Shown: positions 1-7,532 of the stretch, in pieces | How positions within the stretch are numbered: the first letter of the stretch is position 1 | How the letters are laid out: every line of letters begins with the position of its first letter | Source: Asaia siamensis | Lineage (GTDB): Bacteria > Pseudomonadota > Alphaproteobacteria > Acetobacterales > Acetobacteraceae | Reading direction: 5' to 3' | DNA length: 64,000 nucleotides | Assembly: GCF_014635085.1 (NCBI RefSeq) | Contig: NZ_BMCH01000001.1 | Coordinates: 589,151 to 653,150 of the forward strand | Made by a program: the position numbers and the translations under genes | The notes under the pieces: generated by a model | Databases searched by the model: none | What the model was told of the DNA's origin: nothing | The model's input: only the letters and a program-made list of their open reading frames with translations

Positions 1-774
1 TCGCCTTTTGCCTGGTCGCAGCTTCTTGCTTCTCTGGGGCTGATTGTCATGGCGCCGGTTTTCATGGCTGGCTTGCTCCATGATCTTGTCGCAGGGCACG
101 CATGGTTTGCCAGCGTACAGTTCTGGCTGGGTAAATTGCAGGTGCCTGTGCTGGCGCTTGTCGTGCAGCTTGCTCTGGGTGCGATTGCCAATCTGGTCGC
201 TTTCCATTCCACGCGTCTCAAGATCACCCTGCCTTTGCTGATGGCCATACCGAGCCTTCTGGTGCCGGTGGTCTGGGCCCATGGCGTCACGGTGCCTAGG
301 CTTTCAGACGACTGGCTTCTGGGGATGGGCGTCGCTGCGCCCTCCTTCGGCATCATGGCCCTGATTTGTGCTTCGCTCTGGGGCCGTAGTTTCGCCCTGA
401 CCGCAGCTCTCTCCTGGAGCTTTCCCGCGCTGCTCTTGCTCTCCGCTGGATGGGTTCTGAGCCTTTTTCCGGTGAGGCCTGAGGCCTTCCATTCGGCAAT
501 GCTGTTCGGTGCCGTCTTCGCGTTGTTTGGATGTTATTATCGCTGGCAGGAGCAGATCCCGTCGATTGCTGCGCCTCATTGGCTCTGTCGCGTACATCTC
601 GTCGCCATGGGCGTATCGGCTCTGGCCATGATGCCGCTCCTGCCGGTGCTTCAGCGCTGTGGCGAGATCGGCATGATCGTCTCGCTTTTTTGCGTCGCGG
701 TTCTTGGCGCCAGAGCGTTGCTGCCACGGCAGCCCCATTCTGAACCCTCAGCCGTAGAGGCTGATTTCTCATGA
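1..774 (+). CDS. ctaD: Cytochrome oxidase subunit I-like protein, C-terminal part, catalytically degenerate
   Basis: The reading frame is open from the first base of the window and ends at the TGA overlapping ctaB, so the 5' part is missing. It encodes several hydrophobic helices. It can be laid by eye on the C-terminal half of subunit I (CtaD): GHPEVY of CtaD falls on GKLQVP (codons 44-49), and exactly 50 residues later the VWAHH motif falls on VWAHG (codons 91-95). The HFH heme-ligand motif falls on AFH (codons 162-164), before GAVFALF. So the CuB histidine, the cross-linked tyrosine, one histidine of the HH pair and the heme a3 histidine are all replaced. The K-channel lysine is also absent. 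Placement directly before ctaB supports the oxidase origin. It is probably a non-catalytic relic or a repurposed membrane protein. Confidence 0.72.
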   Translation, partial: SPFAWSQLLASLGLIVMAPVFMAGLLHDLVAGHAWFASVQFWLGKLQVPVLALVVQLALGAIANLVAFHSTRLKITLPLLMAIPSLLVPVVWAHGVTVPRLSDDWLLGMGVAAPSFGIMALICASLWGRSFALTAALSWSFPALLLLSAGWVLSLFPVRPEAFHSAMLFGAVFALFGCYYRWQEQIPSIAAPHWLCRVHLVAMGVSALAMMPLLPVLQRCGEIGMIVSLFCVAVLGARALLPRQPHSEPSAVEADFS

Positions 775-1712
775 GTGCTTCCCAGAGCCTTTCCGAAGCG
801 CAGCACAGCTTCGACAGGGAAGAGGGTGCGACTCTCAAGGACTGGCTTGCCCTGCTCAAGCCACGTGTCATCTCGCTGGTGGTCTTCACCGGGGTCGCCG
901 GTATGGCAGTTGCCCCTGTCTGGCCATCCGTCCCGCTGGGGCTGATCGACATGCTGTGCATCTGCGTCGGGGCCGGGGCGGCTGGCGCCATCAACATGTG
1001 GTACGATCGCGATATCGACGCGATCATGAAGCGGACCGCAGTGCGACCTATCCCGGACTCGCGCATGGATGCTGATGGCGCGCTGATTTACGGCATCGTG
1101 CTTTCTCTGGCTTCTGTCGCGCTGCTCTGGCTTGCCAGCAACGCACTCGCAGCGGGCATTCTGGCCTTTTCGATCTTTTTCTATGCCGTGATCTACACGA
1201 TGTGGCTAAAGCGCAGCACGCCGCAGAACATCGTGATCGGTGGGGCGGCTGGGGCTTTCCCGCCCATGATCGGCTGGGCGGCAGCGACAGGCTCGATGAG
1301 CGTTCTGCCTGTTGTCATGTTCGCGATCGTGTTTCTCTGGACGCCGCCGCATTTCTGGTCGCTGTCGCTTTATGCCTGCAAGGATTACACGAAGGCGGGC
1401 ATTCCCATGCTGCCCGTGGTCAAGGGTGCCCGCCATACACGCTGGAATGTGTTCGTCTACACGCTCATTCTGATGGCTGTGTCGTTGGTGCCGTCGTTTC
1501 TGCATCTTTGCGGCATGATCTATACAGTCAGCGCAACTGTGCTCGGGCTCGGATTTATCTACTTCGCTCTGCGCGTACTGCTCGACAAACAGGATGCCCA
1601 AGGCGTCAGTCTTACGGCAGACAAGCCAGCGCGTTATGCCTTCCGGTATTCCCTGGCCTATCTGTTCTTTCTGTTTTCGGCGCTGCTGATCGACCGGGTG
1701 CTTTTCCCATGA
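771..1712 (+). CDS. ctaB: Protoheme IX farnesyltransferase (heme O synthase)
   Basis: CtaB/CyoE is a UbiA-family membrane prenyltransferase that adds a farnesyl group from farnesyl diphosphate to heme b, giving heme o, the cofactor of bo3 oxidase and precursor of heme a. The 313-residue protein has the usual family length and about nine hydrophobic segments. The Asp-rich prenyl-diphosphate site NxxxDxxxD is at residues 75-83 (N75, D79, D83), and a second conserved segment around residues 190-215 holds the Ys and Ds of the family. The ATG overlaps the stop of the upstream oxidase-like gene (ATGA), so the two are translationally coupled. Its likely client now is a quinol oxidase elsewhere in the genome, since the adjacent oxidase subunit is degenerate; that is inference. 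Confidence 0.93.
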   Translation: MSASQSLSEAQHSFDREEGATLKDWLALLKPRVISLVVFTGVAGMAVAPVWPSVPLGLIDMLCICVGAGAAGAINMWYDRDIDAIMKRTAVRPIPDSRMDADGALIYGIVLSLASVALLWLASNALAAGILAFSIFFYAVIYTMWLKRSTPQNIVIGGAAGAFPPMIGWAAATGSMSVLPVVMFAIVFLWTPPHFWSLSLYACKDYTKAGIPMLPVVKGARHTRWNVFVYTLILMAVSLVPSFLHLCGMIYTVSATVLGLGFIYFALRVLLDKQDAQGVSLTADKPARYAFRYSLAYLFFLFSALLIDRVLFP

Positions 1713-1819
1713 AGAAACAAGAAGTCGTCTCCAATCGTCAGGGGCGCATCTTGGGACTGCTTGGCGGTCTTTCGCTCGTGATGGTCTCGCTCTTCGCGCT
1801 GACTTATCTGCGTCTCTGA
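1709..1819 (+). CDS. CoxF-like single-helix protein, 36 residues
   Basis: The ATG overlaps the ctaB stop by four bases (ATGA), and 36 codons follow. The product has a short basic N-terminus (MKKQEVVSNRQGR) and one hydrophobic segment (about residues 14-34). Alphaproteobacterial cox operons often carry such a very small membrane gene directly after ctaB (CoxF family), so position, size and topology fit. Sequence similarity could not be checked. No ctaG or subunit III gene follows. Confidence 0.6.
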   Translation: MKKQEVVSNRQGRILGLLGGLSLVMVSLFALTYLRL

Positions 1820-6113: not shown

Positions 6114-7532
6114 TCAGGCCGTGTGCGTGTGGGCCTTGATATGGCGGCGCACGGCGTCTTCGATAATGTTCAGCTCATTGGCGAGCGTCTCGTAGCGCTC
6201 TTCGCGTGAGAAGAGGTCAGCCAGATGAGGCGGCAGGGCAGGATCGATGCCTGTTGCCTTGCGTACGGCATCGGGGAATTTCGCAGGATGGGCCGTGGCA
6301 GCCACGATCATGGGAATGCCCGGCTCCTGGGCCCTGCGCCCGGCAGCGAGACCGATTGCTGTGTGCGGGTCGGCCAGATAGCCGGAATTGTCGTAAAGGG
6401 CCTTCATTTCGGCGAGGGTCGCCTCGTCATCGAGCATGAGGGCGCCAAAACGCTCTTTGGCCCGCATCCAAGCAGCCTGATCGACCGGCATGTGCCCTGT
6501 CTGGCGGAAGGCCAGCATGGTTGCCTGACAGGCTTGCGGGTCACGATCGAGCATTTCGAAAAGCAGACGCTCGAAATTCGATGAGACCTGAATATCCATC
6601 GACGGTGAGAGACTGGGCTCGACAGCGCGCATCGACATGTCATTGCTGGTCAAAAAGCGCGTGAGAATATCGTTGCGGTTCGAGCCGATGCACAGGCGAC
6701 GGACTGGCAGGCCCATCTGGCTGGCAGCCCAGGCGGCGAGCACATTGCCGAAATTGCCTGTTGGCACTGCAAAGGAGATATCGCGGTCGGGCGCTCCCAT
6801 CATCAGAGCGGCACGCACGTAATAGGGGATCTGGGCTGCAATGCGGGCCCAGTTGATGGAGTTGACCGCCGAGAGCCCGATTTCGTCACGGAAGGGTGTA
6901 TCGGCGAACATTGCCTTCACCATGTCCTGACAATCGTCGAACGTGCCTTCGACGGCGATGTTCAGGATATTGTCATCCTTGACCGTCGTCATCTGACGGC
7001 GCTGCACATCCGAGGTGCGGCCCATCGGGTGAAGGATGGCTACCGAAAGATGCGGGCTGCCACGAAAGGCTTCGATGGCGGCCGAGCCGGTATCGCCAGA
7101 GGTCGCACCGACAATGGTGACGCGCTGGTTGCGCTCTGTCAGCACATGCTCGAAGAGTTGGCCCAGAAGCTGCATCGCCATATCCTTGAAGGCGAGCGTC
7201 GGACCGTGGAACAGCTCCATCGAGAACAGCCCGTTCTCGACCTCCACCAGCGGTGCAATGGCTGCGTGGGAGAACCCGGCATAAGCCTTGGCGCAAAGAC
7301 GCTGCAGCGTCGGCAGATCGATGCTGCCCGCAGCGAAGACAGAGAGGATTTTCGCGGCCAGATCGGGGTAGGAGAGGCTGCGCATGGCGCGCCATTCATC
7401 AGGCGTGAAGCGCGGCCAGGTTTCAGGCATGTACAGCCCACCATCTTCAGCCAGACCAGCGAGAAGAATGTCCGAGAAGGAGCGCGGGCGCGCAGCGCCG
7501 CGAGTGGAACGGTACAGCATGTTAGCCTTCAT
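6114..7532 (-). CDS. thrC: Threonine synthase
   Basis: ThrC is the PLP-dependent enzyme converting O-phospho-L-homoserine to L-threonine. The 472-residue length fits the fungal/alphaproteobacterial class. The PLP lysine lies in GPTLAFKDMAMQ (K116), the phosphate-binding loop in GATSGDTGSAAIEAF (about residues 145-159), and PTGNFGN near residue 258. The start could be the ATG at 7532 or the in-frame ATG at 7520 (MLYRSTRG), which matches typical N-termini better. It is followed on the same strand by the M16 peptidase, a common alphaproteobacterial order. Confidence 0.95.
   Translation of the reverse strand: MKANMLYRSTRGAARPRSFSDILLAGLAEDGGLYMPETWPRFTPDEWRAMRSLSYPDLAAKILSVFAAGSIDLPTLQRLCAKAYAGFSHAAIAPLVEVENGLFSMELFHGPTLAFKDMAMQLLGQLFEHVLTERNQRVTIVGATSGDTGSAAIEAFRGSPHLSVAILHPMGRTSDVQRRQMTTVKDDNILNIAVEGTFDDCQDMVKAMFADTPFRDEIGLSAVNSINWARIAAQIPYYVRAALMMGAPDRDISFAVPTGNFGNVLAAWAASQMGLPVRRLCIGSNRNDILTRFLTSNDMSMRAVEPSLSPSMDIQVSSNFERLLFEMLDRDPQACQATMLAFRQTGHMPVDQAAWMRAKERFGALMLDDEATLAEMKALYDNSGYLADPHTAIGLAAGRRAQEPGIPMIVAATAHPAKFPDAVRKATGIDPALPPHLADLFSREERYETLANELNIIEDAVRRHIKAHTHTA

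Follow-up and report, generated by a model that had tools for sequence, protein, structure and literature searches.

The locus considered here raises the question of what a cytochrome oxidase subunit I gene is kept for once its catalytic ligands are gone. It opens a 64,000-nucleotide window of the Asaia siamensis genome (assembly GCF_014635085.1, contig NZ_BMCH01000001.1, positions 589,151 to 653,150 of the forward strand), in which positions 1-774 of the plus strand hold the final 257 codons and the stop of a 402-codon open frame, here called CtaD*. The frame is followed by ctaB, the gene for heme O synthase. We found that CtaD*, which descends in place from the ctaD gene of an aa3 oxidase, has lost the catalytic ligands, retains both histidines of the low-spin heme site and is under purifying selection. 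Our preferred reading, to which we give a probability of about one half, is that CtaD* has been maintained as a hemoprotein of the membrane, carries a single bis-His heme and works together with CtaB in the handling of heme O destined for the bo3 oxidase.

Origin of the CtaD* family

Altogether we collected at least 107 CtaD* rows from at least 103 genomes and, after long 5' read-through of the frames had been trimmed, aligned them with seven genuine CtaD proteins of Acetobacteraceae. Four named Asaia rows duplicate G259, G286, G192 and G327; hence the 107 rows correspond to 103 genomes, 102 of them with an intact gene, and the frameshifted Asaia platycodi draft (L035; copy L135/G307) was set aside. 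Because the bare profile (A1) picks up genuine CtaD as well, its matches in 380 of 397 genomes are not a CtaD* count, and matches to short frames were taken as CtaD*. A class-wide search at E 1e-80 matched 2 of 385 genomes, both in Acetobacteraceae, with a cut-off that is too strict to rule out weak or diverged CtaD* outside the family and that missed at least two genomes carrying the gene (G122 and G056).

A single-sequence search with Asaia CtaD* gave only Pfam COX1 at E 0.11, and no NCBIfam model matched it at E 0.01 or better. When the family profile was compared with the PDB, the best matches were aa3-type COX1 chains (E 2.2e-69, 237.7 bits), with subunit I of bo3 oxidases at about 120 bits. 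Judged by this profile, the homology of CtaD* to subunit I is certain. A Pfam scan of 31 members found PF00115 in 22 and DUF6463, weakly, in one; the NnrS family PF05940 matched none of the 31. The AlphaFold2 model of Asaia CtaD* has 12 helices and a low confidence (mean predicted local distance difference test score, pLDDT, of 56), which we attribute to an input alignment made of Asaia proteins only. Foldseek returned for this low-confidence model 23 matches below 0.001, all of them subunit I of cytochrome c or bo3 oxidases, with COX1 first and template modelling scores of 0.62-0.70 for the top COX1 matches. In a tree of 42 rows, 29 CtaD* rows lie on one side of a 100/100 branch beside seven genuine CtaD, which points to a single origin. 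Profile, helix number, Foldseek matches and tree all place CtaD* by fold and homology in the heme-copper oxidase superfamily.

The gene order in aa3-bearing relatives is pmtA-ctaC-ctaD-ctaB-ctaG-ctaE-surf1, where pmtA was seen at four of seven loci and ctaC, recognized via its CuA motif, at all five loci looked at. CtaD* loci read gshB-pmtA-ctaD*-ctaB (27/27 genomes, five named Asaia, G013); for L063 the position of CtaD* was taken from a separate search and the other neighbours from the gene-order survey. Comparison of the two orders indicates that ctaC, ctaG (cox11), ctaE and surf1 were removed while ctaD and ctaB stayed, and the neighbourhood search gave no match to ctaE, ctaG or surf1 near CtaD*. 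The ctaB gene is present at 107 of 107 CtaD* loci. On the other side of the gene, gshB and a PmtA-like methyltransferase gene (L003:6194-8464) lie 5' of CtaD* in all the neighbourhoods examined, an association of long standing; the gap from pmtA to CtaD* in Asaia is about 100 bases.

Ligands lost and retained

An earlier note on the window had lined up the frame by eye on CtaD, without gaps, from the GHPEVY motif over 50 residues to VWAHH, and had read the CuB His as Lys and the cross-linked Tyr as Pro. This register is a few residues off, as both the multiple alignment and the hidden Markov model place Pro194 (VPVLA) opposite the Pro of HPEVY, where less diverged relatives read SGPEVA; the residues found in Asaia are Val for CuB His1 and Ala for the Tyr. 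The remaining substitutions were read correctly: compared with the seven genuine CtaD, HH has become HG, the heme a3 His of HFH is Ala, and the K-channel Lys is missing, being Ile. The conclusion that the catalytic ligands are lost is unchanged by the corrected register.

Among the 106 intact rows, CuB His1, the cross-linked Tyr and the K-channel Lys are retained in none and the heme a3 His in two. CuB His3 occurs in 10 rows, CuB His2 in 50 and the Glu of HPEVY in 60. CtaD* does not carry the full six-His ligand set, cross-linked Tyr and K-channel Lys of a catalytic A-family subunit I. Since the first His of HH (residue 239, 50/106) and the Glu of HPEVY persist in some lineages only, the loss of ligands seems to have been partly stepwise.

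Both His ligands of the low-spin heme, residue 51 in transmembrane helix 2 (TM2) and residue 309 in TM10, are found without exception in the 106 intact rows, which come from 102 genomes. The latter is the second His of HFH, which the earlier note had recognized as kept. Its suggestion of a surviving heme a site is strengthened as to the site, for the other ligand, encoded upstream of the window, is kept too, but not as to the heme, since heme a is unlikely in Asaia, where PF02628 was not found. In Paracoccus numbering (3ehb) the kept pair is H94 and H413, which are established ligands of heme a, and the remaining sites are H276, Y280, H325, H326, K354 and H411.

Only four of 367 well-filled columns are invariant, namely His51, Trp150, Trp237 and His309. 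The same four are the only columns kept throughout a 99-row alignment, out of 238 that are invariant in genuine CtaD, with a mean pairwise identity of CtaD* rows of about 31%. The chance of finding two named columns among 4 of 238 equals 0.0002 with relatedness ignored. At the two His positions CAT and CAC codons occur in 67 and 39 and in 85 and 21 rows, respectively, which indicates that these codons undergo mutation without a change of residue. The conservation of this pair suggests, with good probability, that CtaD* binds heme.

Maintenance of the gene

The full CtaD* frame (G000:C1:588716-589924, equal to L003:8566-9774) starts at a TTG codon with AGGA upstream and is free of stops and frameshifts, so that the open frame described from the window extends through its upstream part to all 402 codons. 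Its coupling to ctaB is likewise borne out, as the TGA stop of CtaD* lies inside the ATGA (771-774) that starts ctaB, a four-base overlap. An open CtaD* frame was found in 102 of 103 genomes. In the Asaia platycodi draft the frame is shifted at L035 ~6225-6237, with the first 79 codons in a different frame, by either an assembly error or a true break; the first segment, in its own frame, carries the TM2 His.

Ratios of nonsynonymous to synonymous substitution (dN/dS, omega) were calculated by the NG86 method. The 45 closest pairs (dS 0.11-0.52) gave omega values of 0.057-0.261, which correspond to purifying selection. For 21 pairs of Asaia CtaD* omega was 0.086-0.184 at dS of 0.98-2.24, near saturation; for comparison, ctaB gave 0.024-0.061 in the 20 Asaia pairs computed. 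Trp119 is kept in 30 of 32 CtaD* rows and is Ala in seven of seven genuine CtaD, and thus looks like a new constraint. A random relic was rejected on the grounds of selection and ligand invariance, and the view of CtaD* as a maintained non-catalytic protein is supported by the 102 intact genomes, the close-pair omega of 0.06-0.26 and the kept synteny.

Genome context

The 27 CtaD* genomes tested contain neither Cox11 (0/27) nor SURF1 (0/27), though each has at least one long COX1-family gene, and CtaA is found in nine of them. Seven aa3 genomes with Cox11 all have SURF1 and CtaA (7/7 each). Heme A was rejected as the general cofactor of CtaD* because 18 of the 27 CtaD* genomes, those of Asaia among them, have no CtaA. 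A search of the genome of the window and of two other Asaia genomes gave no heme A synthase (PF02628); heme a is therefore unlikely in Asaia, and heme O or B would be likelier.

Two further genes of the COX1 family, with 664 and 696 codons, are present in the genome of the window and form one clade with the other bo3-length frames. For A. bogorensis, the section of the genome report drawn on here describes two cyoABCD operons, with cyoE/surf1 not beside them (PMC4596401). A side observation on such second operons comes from G126:C1:787601-788944, where a TAG lies within the matched stretch of a second COX1-family gene, perhaps a recent pseudogene of a second bo3 operon.

Of the 17 family genomes that gave no profile match, six were examined. 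In five of these, no ctaB passed the cut-off and nothing resembling CyoB was matched; in the sixth (G031), ctaB lies at a contig end and CtaD* was not found there. G029, G116, G066, G070 and G210 are small, near-complete family genomes that lack CyoB and any ctaB above the cut-off, and in three of them the sole PF00115 match is a long frame of about 785-833 codons.

Proposed role and alternatives

Our preferred reading runs as follows. As an ancestor of the acetic acid bacteria dropped its aa3 oxidase, the operon lost ctaC, ctaG, ctaE and surf1 by deletion, with ctaD and ctaB remaining. CtaD* lost the O2-reducing centre and the K channel and kept the 12-helix fold and the two His between which the low-spin heme is held in subunit I. 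The heme bound there would most likely be heme O from CtaB in Asaia, given that heme A synthase is missing from it, and could be heme A where CtaA exists. CtaB, translated in step with CtaD*, would make heme O in the same membrane; CtaD* may take or buffer the new heme beside CtaB and hand it to CyoB, a subunit of the bo3 ubiquinol oxidase, and so partly fill the place of the missing SURF1. We put forward more tentatively a full carrier model, in which subunit I turned in one event into a single-heme carrier dedicated to heme O synthase. Such a carrier would imitate the apo-oxidase in the manner of a template, dock new heme O in its low-spin site beside CtaB and deliver it to CyoB, and would stand in for SURF1 throughout the acetic acid bacteria.

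Several observations weigh against a heme-handling role. Across all 433 pairs with dS of 0.1-1.0, omega has a median of 0.41 and reaches 1.07 at most; distant pairs, on which NG86 is not reliable, are part of this set. The Arg pair that contacts the heme propionates is absent from 32 of 32 rows (a gap in 31), the formyl Arg is gone in 30 of 32, the two invariant Trp (150 and 237) have no explanation in the heme proposal, and the structural model is poor (mean pLDDT 56). CtaB function has reportedly been shown in E. coli without CtaD*, so that CtaD* appears dispensable for CtaB catalysis, and E. coli builds its bo3 oxidase with no known SURF1 or CtaD*-like protein. The joint loss of CtaD* and ctaB could be a single deletion of a coupled operon. 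The remnants ctaB and ctaA are described as functional in the relevant part of a published study (PMC6915089).

Of the alternatives, the one that survives best, though we consider it unlikely, is a single-heme redox or ligand-binding membrane protein similar to NnrS, acting on quinol, NO or other small molecules, to which ctaB would only supply the heme. Both invariant His ligands suit such a protein, and so does the architecture of NnrS and the heme-copper oxidase homologues (HCOH) which Pei reportedly described in 2014, with 12 helices and two conserved His. However, it predicts neither ctaB beside CtaD* at every locus examined nor the absence of CtaD* from the five genomes also lacking ctaB over the cut-off and a CyoB-like match, and a search of the conserved neighbourhood with named queries gave no redox partner gene. 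We regard as improbable the published suggestion of a heme-free structural stabiliser of CtaB: the ATGA coupling and the linkage to ctaB speak for it, yet a scaffold needs no heme ligands, and both ligands are two of the four invariant columns, so that the published premise that all cofactor ligands are lost does not hold. A role in the bo3 oxidase itself, as an extra subunit or as a scaffold in its assembly with CyoB and not CtaB as the partner, appears highly improbable. The lack of a CyoB-like match in five examined genomes without CtaD* and CtaB would agree with it, but the CtaD* gene is linked to ctaB and not to cyo, and no such subunit is known from E. coli bo3 structures. A slowly decaying relic kept by translational coupling to ctaB would account for the high divergence (about 31% mean identity), the disappearance of most ancestral conserved columns and the frameshift in one draft genome (A. 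platycodi), but is very hard to reconcile with open frames in 102 of 103 genomes, close-pair omega of 0.06-0.26, two invariant ligands and the family-specific Trp119 (30/32 rows).

Features of the locus

The features annotated at the start of the window are collected in Table 1. The 36-codon open reading frame after ctaB is recognizable in other Asaia genomes and in several near genera; its position, which is that of coxF in aa3 operons, and a resemblance suggest that it may be coxF.

Table 1. Positions of CtaD*, its diagnostic residues and the genes that follow it (window coordinates unless stated otherwise)
Feature	Position	Strand	Basis
CtaD* (ctaD-derived non-catalytic subunit I homologue), codons 146-402 and stop	1..774	+	Frame; profile match to COX1 chains
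CtaD*, first 145 codons, upstream of the window	genome C1:588716-589150		
Trp150 codon, one of four invariant family residues	13..15	+	106/106 rows
V193-P-V-L-A197 at the HPEVY position; CuB His to Val, cross-linked Tyr to Ala	142..156	+	Alignments
W237-A-H239-G240 at the WAHH position; first His kept, second His to Gly, Trp237 invariant	274..285	+	Alignments
A307-F-H309 at the HFH position; heme a3 His gone, low-spin His309 (codon 490-492) kept	484..492	+	106/106 intact rows
ctaB, heme O synthase	771..1712	+	NF003349, 330.9 bits (cut-off 246); TIGR01473, 318.8 bits (cut-off 210.3)
36-codon single-helix open reading frame in the place of coxF, ATGA overlap (1709-1712) with ctaB	1709..1819	+	Position; Pfam without match

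Relation to known proteins and significance

CtaD* resembles CtaD/COX1 in its operon position, best profile matches, 12 helices and both low-spin ligands. In contrast to CtaD/COX1, it lacks the set of CuB ligands, the ligand of heme a3, the Tyr, the Lys of the K channel and the Arg pair for the propionates, it is shorter (about 400-480 codons versus about 530-570), and subunits II and III are gone from its operon.

The heme-copper oxidase homologues mentioned above reportedly have room for probably one heme between their two conserved His, so that a single-heme protein of this kind would have a precedent. HCOH and NnrS share with CtaD* the heme-copper oxidase fold and, reportedly, the two His; however, they are said to be ancient families of nitric oxide chemistry, whereas CtaD* arose within one bacterial family from genuine ctaD and is tied to ctaB. 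A search for NnrS in the genome of the window gave no match, and neither did its control in any genome. Closer in proposed function is SURF1, as both would hold new heme between synthase and oxidase by His ligation; SURF1 differs in its unrelated fold and is absent from the 27 CtaD* genomes tested. According to the portion of a review used here, SURF1 is a heme A-binding protein with a presumed role as chaperone of that heme in Paracoccus (PMC9145763).

The gene itself is already known. The loss of ctaD function is said to have been ascribed by Matsutani, in 2014, to accumulated mutations. In A. pasteurianus ctaD is listed adjoining ctaB, as given in the relevant section of PMC5158111. The 'Deranged COX1-like protein' of Acetobacter belongs to the same gene family and has the same ctaB linkage, and the pertinent passage of the published text has all its cofactor-binding residues lost (PMC10715153). 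This "all" is contradicted by the low-spin ligands, invariant here in 102 genomes, and by the measured selection; the published reading of the gene as one without any cofactor ligands is thereby corrected. Searches of the open-licence literature brought up no publication on the retained heme ligands or on a function of CtaD*. The present analysis adds the invariance of the heme pair, the measured selection, the wide occurrence of the family and the SURF1/Cox11 context.

How heme O or heme A is transferred from the synthases into oxidase subunit I is treated as an unsettled question in the portion of the review cited above for SURF1 (PMC9145763). Among laboratory acetic acid bacteria, Gluconobacter oxydans B58 is covered by a collection of transposon knockouts (PMC12041372). 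A protein with only the low-spin ligands, encoded beside heme O synthase in genomes with no SURF1, would be a natural experiment on this question, and one that makes it testable in tractable bacteria.
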